Positions 30,821 to 36,153 of a stretch of 64,000 bases of DNA are shown piece by piece. Position numbers and translations under genes: made by a program. The stretch covers positions 1 through 64,000 of the forward strand of contig SBAS01000019.1 of assembly GCA_005240145.1 (NCBI GenBank), in the 5' to 3' direction. How positions within the stretch are numbered: the first letter of the stretch is position 1; each line of letters starts with the position of its first letter. The notes under the pieces were generated by a model. The model made no database searches. It was given only the letters and a program-made list of their open reading frames with translations, and had not been told where the DNA came from. The stretch comes from Nitrosomonadales bacterium. GTDB taxonomy: Bacteria > Pseudomonadota > Gammaproteobacteria > Burkholderiales > SG8-39.

Positions 30821-31361
30821 GTGCGTAGTTTTCCGGCGGCGGCGACGGCGCACCACGCGCTTTGCGCCGTATTTCGGGCTGGTATTCGCGATCGGGATGA
30901 GCCTGCGCACGGTGCAGATCATCCCGGAGTTTCTCTACGACGCGCCGGAACAGATGGCGGACCTGTTCAAGCGCATGTGGCCGGTTGCGTGGTCGTATTA
31001 CCCCAGGGGCGTGCACGACGCGCTGATAGAGACGCTGCACATCGCGACGCTCGGCACGATACTCGCGATCATCATGGCATTGCCGTTGGGGCTGCTCGCG
31101 GCCAACAACATCACGCCGAACGCCTGGCTCAACTATTTCGCCAGGCTGATGCTCGAGTCCTCGCGCTCGGTGAACTCGCTGGTGTGGGCGCTGCTGTTCG
31201 TCGCGATATTCGGCCCCGGCGCGCTCGCCGGCACCATGGCGATAGATACCGCCATGAATCTCTTCCAGTGCGAGCGCGTAGCACTGATGCTGGTCGCGAT
31301 CTTCGCGATCGTGCTCGTCGCCGAGATCGCCGTCACTTACATCCGCAAGAAAATCATCTGA
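30821..31361 (+). pseudogene. phnE: phnE remnant: phosphonate ABC permease with internal deletion
   Basis: The frame encodes a PhnE-like permease beginning around [22 protein letters not shown], then DALIETLHIATLGTILAIIMALPLGLLAANN and SVNSLVWALLFVAIFGPGALAGTMAI, and jumps directly to DTAMNLFQCERVALMLVAI and IRKKII. The family normally has about 78 further residues at that jump, including the EAA-type loop that docks the ATPase, so this copy cannot be a working permease. ATGGCG at the junction could be the deletion microhomology. The GTG at 30821 begins in another frame that meets this one across a CGG-rich run, suggesting a second lesion. No phnC or phnD is nearby. Confidence 0.7.
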
Positions 31362-31443: not shown

Positions 31444-31517
31444 TTGCACCGATCACCCGATATTGGTCACAATCCCTGTTTTTCGCTCTGGCCTGGACAG
31501 GTCCGGACAAACCGGTT
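31444..31517 (+). promoter_or_regulatory. candidate promoter and paired palindromes ahead of the catabolic operon
   Basis: The 185-nt space after the phnE remnant contains TTGCAC (31444-31449), 18 nt, then CACAAT (31468-31473), a plausible sigma-70 pair. Just downstream are two adjacent 8-bp perfect palindromes, GTCCGGAC (31501-31508) and AACCGGTT (31510-31517), which could be operator half-sites. No regulator gene is adjacent. Confidence 0.35.
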
Positions 31518-31546
31518 GAAATCCAGCCAGCATGGGGGGATGCGCT

Positions 31547-31654
31547 ATGACAATCCAGCGGCTGGATACGAACGCGAGGCTCTCGCAAGCCACGGTTGCC
31601 AACGGCTTCGACTTCACCGCCGGCGTGGAGATCGCGATGACCACGACGGTTTGA
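31547..31654 (+). pseudogene. ridA-like remnant (35 codons) with internal deletion
   Basis: ATG 31547, behind a purine-rich GGGGGGA ribosome site, opens a 35-codon frame starting MTIQRLDTNARLSQATVANG, then FTAG, then VEIAMTTTV and a TGA at 31652-31654. The first 26 residues match the N-terminus of RidA/YjgF proteins and the last nine match their C-terminal strand (the VEIxxTA pattern), while the roughly 80 residues between are missing, including the active-site Arg. The stop overlaps the TTG start of the deacetylase gene (TTGA), so it may now act as a short coupled leader. Confidence 0.55.
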
Positions 31655-32511
31655 ACGCGGTGACCTGGCCGAATGGCGCACGCTTGGCGTTGTCGCTTGT
31701 CGTCAACGTCGAGGAGGGATCGGAGCTTTCCATCGCGCATGGCGATCGCGGGCCGGAGCCGGTGGACGAGTTGGGAGTGACAATAAAGAAGGCACTGCGA
31801 AATTACGGTAACGAAAGTAATTACGCATACGGCATCAAGGCCGGCGCGCCGCGCGTGATGAAGCTGCTGGAGGAGCGGGGCCTGGCCGCGACATTCACCG
31901 CGGCGGCGGTGAGCCTGGAACGCGCGCCGGAGCTGGCCCGGCGCATCGTCGGCGGCGGGCATGAGGTGTGCGCGCATGGCTGGCGCTGGGTGCACCAGTT
32001 CCACATGGACGAGGCGGCGGAACGCGACTTCATCCGCAAAGCCGTGGCATCCATCAGCCAGACCACCGGCGAACGCCCGCATGGCTGGCTTTCCCGCTAC
32101 CTGCTAACCGACAACACCCGCCGGCTGCTGGTGGAGGAAGGCTTCACCTATCACATGGACGACTATTCCGATGACGTGCCCTTCTGGGATACGGTTGATG
32201 GCAAGCCGATTCTCATCCTGCCCTATGCCCTCGACAGCAACGACATGAAGTTGTGGACCGCGCCCAGCTACACGCCGGCGGATTGGCTGCAATACGCGAC
32301 CGACAGCTTCGACTGTTTGTTGCGCGAGGGGGCGCGAGCACCGCGGATGATGTCGCTGGGTGTGCATCTACGCATCATTGGCCGACCGGGGCGTATTGGT
32401 TATTACGAGAAGTTCCTGGACCACGTCGCACGCCACGACGATGTGTGGGTCACCACGCGGCTGCGAATCGCCCGGCACTGGGAAGCGACCCATCCCTGGC
32501 CCGGGCCGTGA
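31651..32511 (+). CDS. polysaccharide-deacetylase-family hydrolase (PuuE-like)
   Basis: A 286-residue NodB-fold protein: WPNGARLALSLVVNVEEGSE (the first strand with the catalytic acid region), RVMKLLEERGLAATFTAAA, GHEVCAHGWRWVHQ (metal-site HxxxH-type segment), RPHGWLSRYLLTDNTRRLL, GFTYHMDDYSDDVPFW and SLGVHLRIIGRPGRI. It is closest in style to PuuE-type allantoinases and related C-N deacetylases rather than to cell-wall enzymes. TTG 31651 (overlapping the ridA remnant) or GTG 31660 is the start. The substrate is unknown. Confidence 0.85.
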   Translation: MNAVTWPNGARLALSLVVNVEEGSELSIAHGDRGPEPVDELGVTIKKALRNYGNESNYAYGIKAGAPRVMKLLEERGLAATFTAAAVSLERAPELARRIVGGGHEVCAHGWRWVHQFHMDEAAERDFIRKAVASISQTTGERPHGWLSRYLLTDNTRRLLVEEGFTYHMDDYSDDVPFWDTVDGKPILILPYALDSNDMKLWTAPSYTPADWLQYATDSFDCLLREGARAPRMMSLGVHLRIIGRPGRIGYYEKFLDHVARHDDVWVTTRLRIARHWEATHPWPGP

Positions 32512-32520
32512 GGAGTGACG

Positions 32521-33885
32521 ATGAGCGACCCGATCCGCCTGTTTGCCGAACATTGCAGCCGCACGCGGTTTGAGGATTTGCCGGAGGCGGCCGTACGTGC
32601 CGCCCGCATCTTCATCCTGGATACGCTGGGCGTCGGTCTGGCCGGCACCAACGGGCCGTGCGTGACGGAGCTGATCGACTCATCGGCAGCGACGTTGGGC
32701 GACGGGAGGGCGCGCTGTTGGGGACATGAGCGCAGGCTGTCCGCGGCAGGTGCGGCGATGGTGAACGGCTACCAGATCCACAATTCCGAATTCGACTGCG
32801 TGCATGAGGCCGCCGTGCTGCACCCCGTGACCGTGTGCCTGGCCGCCGTCATGGCGCATGCCGACAGGGTGGGCGGTGTAAGCGGGCGCGAGCTGGTACG
32901 CGCCGTGGTGCTGGGCGTGGATGTGGCCTGCCACCTGGGCGTGGCAAGCACCACGGGGCTGCGCTTCTTCCGCCCGGCGACGGGGGGGATTTTTGCTGCC
33001 GCCGCGGCGTTGGGCAGCGTGTTGGGCTTTGACGCGGACCGCCAGGCTTCGCTGTTCGGCCACGTGTATGGCCAGTTGTGCGGCACGATGCAGCCGCATA
33101 CCGAGGGTTCCCCGTTGCTGGGCTTGCAGATCGGCTTCAACGCGCGCAACGCGCTGATCGCCGCCGATCTGGCGGCGCGCGGTCTACCCAGTATCGAGAA
33201 CGTGCTGCAAGGTCCGTTCGGCTATTTCGGCATGATCGAGGGCGCGGGCGATATCGCGCGCGTGCGCGGTGATATCGGCCGGGTCTGGCGCATCACCGAA
33301 GTGGCGCACAAGCCCTTCCCCAGCGGGCGCGCGACGCATGGCATGCTGGACGGGTTCATGGAGTTGCAGGCCGAACATGGGTTCAAGGCCATGGACGTCG
33401 CCAGCGCGGAGGCGCGGATACCGAAGCTCACGCATCATCTGGTCGGACGGCCGGTGAAGGACGACATGGCGGTGAACTATGCGCGGCTGTGCGGACCCTA
33501 TGTTTGCGCGTGTGCGCTGCTGCGCGGGGCGGTGGGGATCGACGATTTCAGTGACGCGCGCCGGCATGATCCGCAGACACTGGACCTGGGGCGGCGCATC
33601 GTGGCCGTGGTGGACGACAACCCCGACCCGAATGCATTGACCCCCGTGACGGTGAGCGTGCGGCTGAAGAACGGCAGGGAACTGCACCGCACGATCGCGA
33701 CGGTATACGGCAACCCCGCGAAGCCGATGAGCCGGGAGGCGCATTTGGAAAAATTCCGGCGCAACTTTGCGTCCTGCCGCGCACCGCTGCCAGCGGCGAA
33801 CGCCGAGCGGCTGATCGAAATGCTCGACCGGATCGAGCAGGTGGATGACATCCGCCGCATCGGCGATCTGCTGGTCCCCGCCTAA
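32521..33885 (+). CDS. MmgE/PrpD family protein
   Basis: A 454-residue all-helical/capped protein of the MmgE/PrpD family, which contains 2-methylcitrate dehydratase and other carboxylic-acid dehydratases or isomerases. Features include FILDTLGVGLAG, MVNGYQIHNSEFDCVHEAAVLHP (the usual DD/H segment), TGGIFAAAAALGSVLGFDADR, EGSPLLGLQIGFNARNA and KPFPSGRATHG. ATG 32521, with GAGGAG 5 nt upstream, is preferred to GTG 32515. It is full length. The context suggests a substrate other than methylcitrate. Confidence 0.9.
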   Translation: MSDPIRLFAEHCSRTRFEDLPEAAVRAARIFILDTLGVGLAGTNGPCVTELIDSSAATLGDGRARCWGHERRLSAAGAAMVNGYQIHNSEFDCVHEAAVLHPVTVCLAAVMAHADRVGGVSGRELVRAVVLGVDVACHLGVASTTGLRFFRPATGGIFAAAAALGSVLGFDADRQASLFGHVYGQLCGTMQPHTEGSPLLGLQIGFNARNALIAADLAARGLPSIENVLQGPFGYFGMIEGAGDIARVRGDIGRVWRITEVAHKPFPSGRATHGMLDGFMELQAEHGFKAMDVASAEARIPKLTHHLVGRPVKDDMAVNYARLCGPYVCACALLRGAVGIDDFSDARRHDPQTLDLGRRIVAVVDDNPDPNALTPVTVSVRLKNGRELHRTIATVYGNPAKPMSREAHLEKFRRNFASCRAPLPAANAERLIEMLDRIEQVDDIRRIGDLLVPA

Positions 33886-33898
33886 GAGGACCGGACCC

Positions 33899-35281
33899 AT
33901 GGTGACGTACTTCCAGGAAGCGGATCCGGCGCGCATCCTGGACGAGTACCCGATCGGCGATGCCTTCATGCACGGACCCGCGCGGTTGGATGCGGTGGCG
34001 CTGCGCGCAGTGCAGGACCGTCGCTTCGCCGCGCTGATGCGGCGTGGCTGGGAGATCCCGTTCTACCGGCGGCTATGGCGCGGCGCGGGGATAGAGCCGG
34101 GTGACATCAGGCGTGTCGATGACCTGGCGAAACTCCCCTGTTTTTCCAAGACCGACCTGATGGCGAGTGTGGAGGCGTATCCACCGTTCGGCGATTTTCA
34201 TGGCATGGACGGGGCAGAAGGGCGGCGTAGCGTGGTGCTGCACACCACGAGCGGCACCACGGGCTCGCCGCAGCCGCTGTTCTTCGGCGCCTGGGACCGG
34301 GAAGTGCAGAACGCGCTGCTGGCGCGGGCCTATCTGTTACAAGGGATGACAGCGCGGGACGTGGTGCATTCCACCTACGGCTTCGGCATGGTCAATGGCG
34401 GGCACTACATTCGCGAAGCGGTGACGCATTTCGTCGGGGCCTTGTGCCTGCCAGCGGGAACAGGCCTGGAGACGCGGTCCGAACAGCAGGTGGCATTGAT
34501 GCTGCGTTTCGGCGCCACGGCGATGGTGGGCTTCGCGGACTATATTCTGAAGCTGGCAGCCATAGCGCGCGAGGCAGGACTGGAACCGGGACGCGACATT
34601 CCGATCCGGATGATCTCCGGCCATCTTGGCGCTGCTGGGCATGCCGCAATGGCGCAAGCCTGGCCGGGGTCAGCGGTGTACGACTGGTACGGTGTCGGCG
34701 ATACCGGGGTCATCGCCGCTGAGGGGCCGGACCATGACGGGTTGTATGTCTGGGAAGACGCGCATCTGGTGGAAATCCTGGACCCCGAGCGGCTGGTTCC
34801 CGTGGCGATGGGGGAGCGCGGCAATATCTGCGTGACCGTGTTGTTCAAGAACACGATCTATCCGGTGATTCGGTTTAATACCAACGATGTGTCATCGATA
34901 CTTCCGGGACACGGCGGCATCGGCATCGGGTTTCGCCGACTCGCCGGTTTCCAGGGCCGCAGCGACAACATGGTGAAGCTGCGCGGCATCAGTGTGTATC
35001 CCACAGGCATCGGCGTGATTCTGAACGAGGTCGATGGCCTGAATGGCGAGTATGTCTGCCAGCTGGTGAACCGGGATGGGCGGGAAGAGCTGATCGTGAC
35101 AGCGGAAACCGGTGCGTCCGCCACAGGTGACATGGTGGCGTTGCAACGGCGTGTGCGTGATCTGTTGCGCCAGCGGCTCGGTGTGGCGGTATTCGTGGAA
35201 CTGACACAGCCGGGCGGTACCGCGACACTCAGCCAGATCGATTCCCGGCAGAAGCCGATCCGATTGATCGACGAGCGATGA
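33899..35281 (+). CDS. phenylacetate-CoA ligase-like AMP-binding enzyme (PaaK family)
   Basis: A 460-residue adenylate-forming enzyme: the N-terminal FYRRLWRGAGIEPGDIRRVDDLAKLPCFSKTDLM is typical of PaaK. The ATP-binding TTSGTTGSPQP spans 116-126, followed by SGHLGAAGHAAM, YDWYGVGDTGVIAAE, YPVIRFNTNDVS and the C-terminal lid around FQGRSDNMVKLRGISVYP. It should activate a carboxylic acid to its CoA thioester. ATG 33899 lies 14 nt after the MmgE/PrpD gene. The ATGA at its end starts another frame that appears truncated. Confidence 0.9.
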   Translation: MVTYFQEADPARILDEYPIGDAFMHGPARLDAVALRAVQDRRFAALMRRGWEIPFYRRLWRGAGIEPGDIRRVDDLAKLPCFSKTDLMASVEAYPPFGDFHGMDGAEGRRSVVLHTTSGTTGSPQPLFFGAWDREVQNALLARAYLLQGMTARDVVHSTYGFGMVNGGHYIREAVTHFVGALCLPAGTGLETRSEQQVALMLRFGATAMVGFADYILKLAAIAREAGLEPGRDIPIRMISGHLGAAGHAAMAQAWPGSAVYDWYGVGDTGVIAAEGPDHDGLYVWEDAHLVEILDPERLVPVAMGERGNICVTVLFKNTIYPVIRFNTNDVSSILPGHGGIGIGFRRLAGFQGRSDNMVKLRGISVYPTGIGVILNEVDGLNGEYVCQLVNRDGREELIVTAETGASATGDMVALQRRVRDLLRQRLGVAVFVELTQPGGTATLSQIDSRQKPIRLIDER

Positions 35282-35478
35282 GCGGCGTAAACGATTGGGC
35301 AGTTACAGCTGGCGCGGCCATTGCCACGGGGTGTTCCAGATCCCGGTGGCTGCCTGAATTACGAATTCGCCACCCACAGGTTTGCGTCGCATGCGCACGG
35401 CCTTGCATGCGTCGAGCAACGCATTCCCCCCGCTGCAGGGGCTACCGCAAACGCAACAGTTACTGTGCGGTCTTGTAA
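35278..35478 (+). pseudogene. coupled start of a lost fifth operon gene; gene-poor stretch to 35593
   Basis: ATG 35278 overlaps the ligase stop (ATGA) and begins MSGVNDWAVTAGAAIATG, a normal-looking N-terminus, but the remaining residues are Arg/Cys-rich with no recognisable family and end at 35478. The simplest reading is that the operon once continued and was cut here. The 334 nt between 35282 and 35615 otherwise contain short GC palindromes (GCATGC twice near 35390 and 35409) and no supported gene on either strand. Confidence 0.3.
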
Positions 35479-35615: not shown

Positions 35616-35858
35616 ATGTCCACGACCATGACAATCCGCCTAGAAGATGCAGTCAGGGACCGCCTTGACCAGCTTGCCGAGGCGACCCAGCGCAGCAAGT
35701 CGTTCCTGGCCGCAGAAGCGATCCGCGCCTTCGTCGAAACCGACGAGTGGCAGATCGGCGAAATCCGCGCTGCGTTGCACGAGGCCGATGCCGGAGACTT
35801 TGCCAGTGACAAAGACGTTGCGGCGCTGTCCAGGAAATGGAAGGTGAGTGCGCGCTAA
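35616..35858 (+). CDS. ribbon-helix-helix antitoxin
   Basis: An 80-residue protein: STTMTIRLEDAVRDRLDQLAEATQRSKSFLAAEAIRAFV is a clean RHH/CopG DNA-binding unit, followed by EIRAALHEADAGDFASDKDV, the toxin-binding tail common to ParD/RelB-like antitoxins. ATG 35616 has GAGGAG upstream. Its stop TAA falls inside a perfect inverted repeat that also surrounds the toxin start region. It is unrelated in sequence detail to the antitoxin at 11.4 kb. Confidence 0.9.
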   Translation: MSTTMTIRLEDAVRDRLDQLAEATQRSKSFLAAEAIRAFVETDEWQIGEIRAALHEADAGDFASDKDVAALSRKWKVSAR

Positions 35859-36153
35859 CGCACGAGTGCGTTCCGTTAAGTGGTTGCGCAAGGCCTTGCG
35901 CAATCTTGACGAGGAAGCCAGCTACATTGCGAGCGACGATGTGACGGCTGCGCGCCTGGTGGTGGAGCGGGTGGTCGGTGCGATGGCAATGCTTGCAGAT
36001 CAACCCGGACTTGGGCGTCCTGGCCGTGTGCCCGGCACACGCGAACTGATTGTAAAGATGACGCGTTATATCGTGCCGTACCGTGTGCGGGGCGAGACGG
36101 TCGAACTCCTGCGGGTGTTCCACACCTCGAGACGTCTGCCTGAGAAGTGGTAG
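35848..36153 (+). CDS. RelE/ParE-family toxin
   Basis: Up to 101 residues: VKWLRKALRNLDEEASYIASDDVTAARLVVERVVGAMAMLADQPGLGRPGRVPGTRELIVKMTRYIVPYRVRGETVELLRVFHTSRRLPEKW, the standard ParE/RelE hairpin and sheet with the late LRVFHTSR strand. GTG 35848 overlaps the antitoxin end by 11 nt; GTG 35866 is an alternative start after the antitoxin stop and would begin closer to the conserved VKWL. The gene ends 62 nt before the convergent ftsZ stop. Confidence 0.88.
   Translation: MRANARVRSVKWLRKALRNLDEEASYIASDDVTAARLVVERVVGAMAMLADQPGLGRPGRVPGTRELIVKMTRYIVPYRVRGETVELLRVFHTSRRLPEKW
35856..35876 (+). repeat. copy 2 of the direct repeat, containing a perfect 7-bp inverted repeat
   Basis: TAACGCACGAGTGCGTTCCGT spans the antitoxin stop codon and the alternative toxin start. 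Within it, AACGCAC and GTGCGTT (35857-35872) form a perfect inverted repeat with a 2-nt loop or spacer. Copy 1 keeps only the left half of this palindrome. Confidence 0.6.

Follow-up and report, generated by a model that had tools for sequence, protein, structure and literature searches.

A 64,000-nucleotide stretch of the genome of a Nitrosomonadales bacterium (contig SBAS01000019.1, positions 1 to 64,000; here called the window) contains three adjacent genes that belong to a recurring and apparently undescribed operon family, in which each enzyme comes from a known superfamily. The genes encode a PuuE-type hydrolase predicted to act on cyclic amides or imides (Imi), an MmgE/PrpD-family enzyme (Mmg), and a PaaK-like AMP-forming acid-coenzyme A (CoA) ligase (Lig). 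We propose, with moderate confidence, that the complete set breaks the ring of a small cyclic imide or amide and yields an unsaturated branched dicarboxylate, which would then enter CoA-dependent breakdown. Members of the Alpha-, Beta-, and Gammaproteobacteria from marine and freshwater habitats carry the set, as does, for the most part, the cultured Tistrella mobilis, and this recurrence suggests a pathway for the catabolism of a small, cyclic, nitrogen-containing compound. Such a pathway would put a name to the recycling of an organic nitrogen compound in surface waters, and automatic labels such as "polysaccharide deacetylase" or "phenylacetate-CoA ligase" would be corrected. The PuuE-related hydrolase clade, the MmgE/PrpD group, and the PaaK-like ligase group would be new groups, whose functions constrain each other and which can be assayed jointly.

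Gene content and recurrence of the set

Imi (positions 31660 to 32511), Mmg (32521 to 33885; PF03972 and PF19305), and Lig (33899 to 35281; PF14535) are full-length open reading frames (ORFs) on the plus strand with small gaps between them, as the initial annotation of this DNA had described. That annotation had started the hydrolase at an upstream TTG (position 31651), whereas the GTG at position 31660 lines up with the ATG of its relatives. The ridA relic that had been noticed in front of the trio (31547 to 31654, plus strand) was confirmed by alignment to the intact ridA of another locus, L025, from which it differs by a 240-bp in-frame internal deletion that leaves 35 codons (27 N-terminal and 8 C-terminal). 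The truncated gene behind the trio, also correctly recognized as coupled, is the start of an amidase-signature amidase (35278 to 35299, plus strand) and shares a 4-bp ATGA overlap with the ligase stop. It is cut after approximately 6 codons, where homology to the amidase starts of L024 and L025 stops, and the ORF that extends beyond the stub (35278 to 35478) is not an amidase.

The closest homologues of the trio were found in two freshwater Acetobacteraceae metagenome-assembled genomes (MAGs), L024 (labeled Asaia) and L025 (Lake Baikal), with ligase amino acid identities of 92% and 85%, respectively. In both loci the operon is complete, with five genes (ridA-Imi-Mmg-Lig-amidase) that overlap or lie close together. 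At L025, RidA is intact, with 118 amino acids, and matched TIGR00004 with 49.8 bits (3.7e-13), under the cut-off of 106.25 bits, and RutC with 44 bits; the ridA of L024 is likewise intact. Going by these sequences, the fifth gene missing from the window is an amidase-signature amidase, which would indicate two successive C-N cleavages. All parts of the complete form predicted by the initial annotation (an intact ridA, a fifth gene, a regulator, and a transporter) were located in other genomes.

Whether the three genes co-occur elsewhere was a point on which that annotation had made its reading depend, and they did so widely. A ligase-based scan of GTDB contigs recovered 69 loci, mostly from plankton MAGs, to which regions of three further genomes were added, together with a region of a fourth that is probably already in the 69-locus set. 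The following counts are given over 73 ligase loci, in some of which contig ends conceal neighbors. An MmgE/PrpD gene was located directly upstream of the ligase in 46 loci, an amidase directly downstream in 40, and an Imi-clade gene within 12 kb in 40, while Imi, Mmg, and Lig were collinear in 21. Imi and the amidase were co-located, in the genetic sense only, in L024 to L027, L039, L044 to L047, L051, L073, and others. Furthermore, five of 399 sampled genomes of the phylum, the window's own included, encoded the ligase (E ≤ 1e-80), and these were exactly the genomes with an Imi of at least approximately 57% identity; other PuuE-like proteins in the 399 genomes reached 51% identity or less. 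Among these four relatives of the window's genome in carrying the ligase, two have Imi and the ligase within approximately 6 to 10 kb of each other on one contig, and two have them on separate contigs. Because of this co-occurrence across loci and genomes, the trio arrangement is not due to chance.

RidA was considered as a core member of the operon and rejected, as it was detected in 2 of the 69 loci; it is a local accessory.

Fuller versions of the set (L056, L058, L065, L075, and L158) also include GntR, a CitE-family lyase, a MaoC-family hydratase, an acyl-CoA dehydrogenase (ACAD), two CaiB CoA-transferases, and a second MmgE/PrpD. Several of them add a GAF protein, an acetyl-CoA hydrolase/transferase-family (HAT) gene, and tripartite ATP-independent periplasmic (TRAP) transporter genes. 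The nearest named families of the lyase and the hydratase were RipC (201 bits; cut-off, 375) and RipB (231.7 bits; cut-off, 340), respectively, in L058, although the equivalog level was not reached in the fuller loci. In L162, the CitE, MaoC, ACAD, and both CaiB genes directly follow Imi. Plasmid pTM2 of T. mobilis, whose Imi is 67% identical to that of the window, carries the order Imi-TRAP-MmgE-ACAD-CaiB-CaiB2 and, elsewhere, GntR-HAT-MmgE2-ligase-amidase. In T. mobilis, Imi is protein WP_014753324.1 (TMO_RS23560), the ligase and amidase genes are TMO_RS21660 and TMO_RS21665, and the binding protein of the neighboring TRAP transporter is WP_041607376.1.

Other arrangements were observed as well. 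In 10 of the 73 loci, all of them marine (L053, L057, L059 to L062, L064, L070, L071, and L077), the ligase (53 to 57% identity) lies beside a xanthine dehydrogenase (XDH)-type hydroxylase without Imi or Mmg. Most of these loci also encode an amidohydrolase-2 protein, an M20 peptidase, and a peptide-type solute-binding protein, and they probably represent a second undescribed N-heterocycle pathway that uses the same ligase family. In the SAR116-type loci (L032, L035, L037, L043, L082, and L084), the trio lies within one conserved block together with HisD-like, 2-hydroxyacid dehydrogenase, PxpA (LamB/YcsF), class II aldolase, and GMC oxidoreductase genes. On a plasmid of Variovorax paradoxus VAI-C (L181), a distant carbohydrate esterase family 4 (CE4)-type protein (28%) adjoins an MmgE/PrpD protein (43%), with further genes for an amidase, CaiB, an enoyl-CoA hydratase, and a flavin mononucleotide monooxygenase; this set is possibly a convergent pathway.

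Predicted functions of the enzymes

The family models for Imi, Mmg, and Lig all scored far under their equivalog cut-offs, and the PuuE, PrpD, and PaaK labels therefore hold at the family level only. Imi matched the PuuE allantoinase model TIGR03212 with 284.2 bits (cut-off, 424.6). Its nearest structure in the PDB was PuuE (3cl6; template modeling [TM] score, 0.87; 43% identity), compared with a TM score of approximately 0.5 to CE4 deacetylases. The metal-free catalytic residues of PuuE (E36, E37, H126, W130, D187, H259, and R261) are all retained in Imi, and E36, H126, W130, H259, and R261 are invariant in the Imi clade and PuuE. Seven near-fixed PuuE positions are altered in the Imi clade (Y35V, W84P, F100T, Y164L, D185H, T212A, and L236A), which was monophyletic with 100/100 support and fell outside the allantoinase clade (42 versus 26 sequences). 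The Asp-His-His metal triad described for CE4 polysaccharide deacetylases (PMC3084791) is absent from Imi, in which the second His is a Trp, as in PuuE. Imi is predicted to hydrolyze amides in small rings, with an altered specificity, and not to deacetylate sugars. Of the "C-N or ester hydrolase" named in the initial annotation, the C-N hydrolase stands, while an ester hydrolase is unlikely given the PuuE cyclic-amide-hydrolase core. We infer that Imi acts on cyclic imides because related enzymes, the Pseudomonas putida imidase and HxnM of Aspergillus nidulans, do so.

The predicted model of Mmg (pLDDT, 88) had cis-aconitate decarboxylase (CAD) as its nearest fold, followed by iminodisuccinate (IDS) epimerase. 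H101 and K264 are invariant in the Mmg clade. Relative to CAD, H103 and K272 are retained, while H277 is replaced by G and both Y318/319 and K207 by L, with the replacements invariant in the clade; T97 is likewise replaced by another invariant residue. We take K207, K272, and T97 to be active-site positions of CAD. Bacterial IRG1 also lacks H277 and Y318, so the CAD residue criterion is not absolute. As a candidate function for Mmg, cis-aconitate decarboxylation was made less likely by the differences at H277, Y318/319, and K207; active-site roles in CAD have been described for H103, H277, and Y318 (PMC7347537). The models for the 2-methylcitrate dehydratase PrpD were not reached (TIGR02330, 16.2 of 458 bits; NF042438, 32.9 of 950 bits). 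Mmg likely catalyzes a proton transfer, with a di- or tricarboxylate as its substrate, since the base His101 and Lys264 are kept and the decarboxylase residues H277 and Y318/319 are lost. The MmgE/PrpD family and the rearrangement of an acid given in the initial annotation are supported, but the nearest relatives are CAD and IDS epimerase, not 2-methylcitrate dehydratase.

The ligase matched TIGR02155 (PaaK) with 171.7 bits (cut-off, 646.3). Its nearest structure in the PDB is a phenylacetate-CoA ligase (4r1l), its fold by sequence is that of PaaK, and the AMP-binding motifs TTSGTTG and GRSDNMVKLRG are intact. The acid-CoA ligase class and the CoA activation step proposed earlier are supported. 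In the complete operon, the amidase retains the Ser-Ser-Lys motif region. The models nearest to it were those of AtzE and indoleacetamide hydrolase; the AtzE family (241 bits) and allophanate hydrolase were among its better NCBIfam matches, and biuret hydrolase was among the top PDB relatives.

In the proposed pathway, Imi would hydrolyze one C-N bond of a small cyclic imide or amide to give a half-amide, and the amidase, which is lost in the window, would hydrolyze the second C-N bond and free ammonia. Mmg, with its conserved general-base His, would rearrange the resulting dicarboxylate, whether unsaturated or branched, in a reaction that could be a proton transfer, a hydration, or a decarboxylation. 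Lig, or the CoA-transferases in the fuller loci, would form a CoA thioester, which the RipB/RipC-like hydratase and lyase, together with the acyl-CoA dehydrogenase, would cleave to central metabolites. In some loci, the substrate may be imported by the TRAP transporter. The nature of the intermediate as an unsaturated branched dicarboxylate is suggested by the RipB/RipC-like neighbors and the aconitate decarboxylase-like Mmg. A described pathway with a gene-for-gene match was not found in the openly licensed literature on this gene combination or on cyclic-imide, isonicotinate/citrazinate, homarine, or maleimide catabolism, in agreement with the initial annotation.

Several points weigh against this pathway. 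The observations concern gene content, synteny, co-occurrence, clade distinctness, fold, residue conservation, and the insertion site, from which we infer every reaction, the order of the reactions, and the substrate class. The RipB/RipC, PaaK, PrpD, and PuuE matches all lie under the NCBIfam equivalog cut-offs. Imi is closer to the ureide hydrolase PuuE than to HpPgdA (269 versus 75 bits), which is reported to be the structure nearest the characterized imidase HxnM (PMC9304392), so that a ureide, hydantoin, or lactam could also be the substrate. Many loci are without one component, partly through contig ends, and the ligase alone is not diagnostic of the set, because the ten XDH-type loci carry it without Imi or Mmg. 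The window copy itself has lost the amidase and ridA, and the low substitution ratios of its three genes (see below) mostly reflect evolution before the transfer.

Insertion site and state of the copy in the window

The trio sits in a block of approximately 5.4 kb between lpxC and ftsZ, which are separated by 60 to 592 bp in all six same-genus genomes that have both on one contig. By blastn, the window matched from position 31487 to 35284-35299, with 89.2% identity to L024 over 3,677 bp and 85.5% to L025 over 3,686 bp. Nucleotide identity per gene was 82 to 92%, and the 240-bp ridA deletion was the one break in homology. Neither the trio nor a close Mmg was found in 12 same-genus genomes; the next best MmgE (46% identity) came from another genus of the same family (L005), in which the other two trio genes are not nearby. 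Judged by this homology, the segment from 31487 to 35299 on the plus strand (leader, ridA relic, trio, and amidase stub) is a truncated, horizontally acquired operon copy rather than the "orphan" operon of the initial annotation. Flanking repeats or mobile-element ends were sought at the insertion, and no convincing ones were found. The hydrolase gene is nearer L025 (synonymous divergence, 0.24 versus 0.52), and the MmgE and ligase genes are nearer L024; this mosaic divergence suggests recombination among donors.

The block also holds a phnE relic and a parDE-like toxin-antitoxin pair. The relic (30864 to 31361, plus strand), an incomplete gene for a phosphonate ABC transporter permease, matched positions 14 to 134 of the 252 in TIGR01097 with 132 bits (cut-off, 216.7). 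The possibility that it had been copied from a resident phnE gene was tested and rejected, as no close copy exists elsewhere in the genome, and the relic is probably an unrelated insertion. The parDE-like pair (35616 to 36153, plus strand; RHH_1, 18.9 bits, below the cut-off; ParE_toxin, 63.2 bits) adjoins ftsZ, had no counterpart at this position in those same-genus genomes that were examined, and is probably independent of the trio.

The set in the window is truncated and may be decaying. The chance that it is a nonfunctional fragment, inserted at random between lpxC and ftsZ and without a present role, comes close to even; this concerns the window copy and not the operon family. Consistent with decay, the amidase is lost, ridA and phnE are internally deleted, the site is empty in all six same-genus genomes in which a single contig spans the junction, and none of the 12 same-genus genomes has the trio. 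However, none of the three ORFs is interrupted and their motifs are intact, and the ratios of nonsynonymous to synonymous substitution against both donor-like loci are 0.09 to 0.16, which shows constraint over the combined branches and not specifically after transfer. The genome was also searched for a complete pathway of its own and was found to encode several amidases, the best full-length one being 38% identical to the lost amidase, as well as CitE-like genes and an ACAD-CaiB-CaiB2-MaoC cassette that, like the fuller loci, includes a TRAP transporter (contig C81; L167, 6394 to 13279). This resident cassette is no evidence for use of the trio, because many relatives in the genus that lack the trio have its MaoC as well (62 to 87% identity; 8 of 12 other genomes). 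The trio could work in this host only if the resident amidases and the C81 cassette replaced the missing steps.

Alternative substrates and relation to described systems

If the substrate were a ureide or a substituted hydantoin, Imi would open the ring as PuuE does, the amidase would remove the carbamoyl nitrogen, and the acid would enter the CoA branch. This agrees with PuuE as the nearest relative of Imi, with the AtzE-family, allophanate hydrolase, and biuret hydrolase relatives of the amidase, and with the weak RutC match of the L025 RidA. HyuA/HyuB-like oxoprolinase/hydantoinase genes, read from sequence, are also found near L030 and L066, and a biuret-amidohydrolase-like gene is found at L075. 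However, seven near-invariant PuuE positions are altered in the Imi clade, no carbamoyl-specific gene (ureidoglycolate or ureidoacrylate) is conserved in the cluster, and a RipB/RipC-like module would be superfluous for an amino acid product. Overall, we consider this substrate class unlikely.

More doubtful still is a lower pyridine-ring pathway, in which Imi would open a hydroxylated pyridine (2,6-dihydroxypyridine type, as the imide tautomer) or a hydroxyglutarimide, as in nicotinate catabolism of A. nidulans, and the opened chain would be degraded to an itaconate- or glutarate-like acid. HxnM and HxnN provide a precedent, the paralogous ligase group lies beside XDH-type hydroxylases in 10 loci, and CAD is the nearest solved relative of Mmg. 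However, the conserved neighbors of Imi-Mmg-Lig-amidase include neither a hydroxylase nor a monooxygenase nor a ring reductase, Imi was found within 12 kb in none of the XDH loci, and the CAD residues H277, Y318/319, and K207 are not retained in Mmg.

Within the cyclic imides, it is improbable, if attractive, that the operon serves as a bacterial route for tetrapyrrole-derived maleimides, the oxidation fragments of chlorophyll, heme, and bilins. Hematinic acid imide or ethylmethylmaleimide would be the ring that Imi opens; the amidase would free ammonia, and Mmg would act on the dialkylmaleate. After CoA activation, cleavage of the RipB/RipC-like kind would leave an acyl-CoA and a 2-oxo acid. 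The product of PrpD, 2-methyl-cis-aconitate, is shorter by one CH2 than opened hematinic acid. Such a route would also be in keeping with the enzyme classes, the TRAP transporter, and a distribution rich in plankton. That Imi is an ordinary CE4 polysaccharide deacetylase only incidentally linked to the other genes can practically be dismissed: despite a Pfam Polysacc_deac_1 match (50.7 bits), its second metal His is a Trp as in PuuE, its fold is nearest PuuE (TM score, 0.87 versus approximately 0.5 for CE4 deacetylases), and its co-occurrence with the ligase at the genome level is exact.

Our preferred reading, the opening of a small cyclic imide or amide followed by CoA-dependent breakdown, shares elements with several described systems. 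Imi has the same catalytic core and fold as PuuE allantoinase, a metal-free enzyme of CE4 fold, but differs in its separate clade, low model score, altered pocket, and linkage to MmgE, ligase, and amidase genes. In A. nidulans, the imidase HxnM opens a cyclic imide before the amidase-signature amidase HxnN acts (PMC9304392). HxnM/HxnN and the imidase of P. putida YZ-26 resemble the set in pairing a CE4-fold ring-opening hydrolase with a subsequent ammonia-releasing amidase-signature amidase. By structure, HxnM is reported to be nearest HpPgdA, whereas Imi is nearest PuuE; unlike the set in the window, the Hxn pathway has neither a CoA ligase nor an MmgE/PrpD enzyme, and its end point is 2-hydroxyglutarate (PMC9304392). 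The fuller loci resemble itaconate degradation (Rip/Ict-Ich-Ccl) in their RipB-like hydratase and RipC-like lyase; they differ in that the RipB/RipC scores fall below the cut-offs, the HAT gene is not RipA by model, and an extra acyl-CoA dehydrogenase, two CaiB, and two MmgE/PrpD are present. Mmg shares its fold, the base His (H103 of CAD), and K272 with CAD, IDS epimerase, and 2-methylcitrate dehydratase, but the CAD residues H277, Y318/319, K207, and T97 are replaced, and the PrpD match reaches 37 bits only. Likewise, Lig shares the AMP-binding fold and motifs with the phenylacetate-CoA ligase PaaK but scores 172 versus 646 bits, and no paa ring-degradation genes were noticed beside it in the loci examined.

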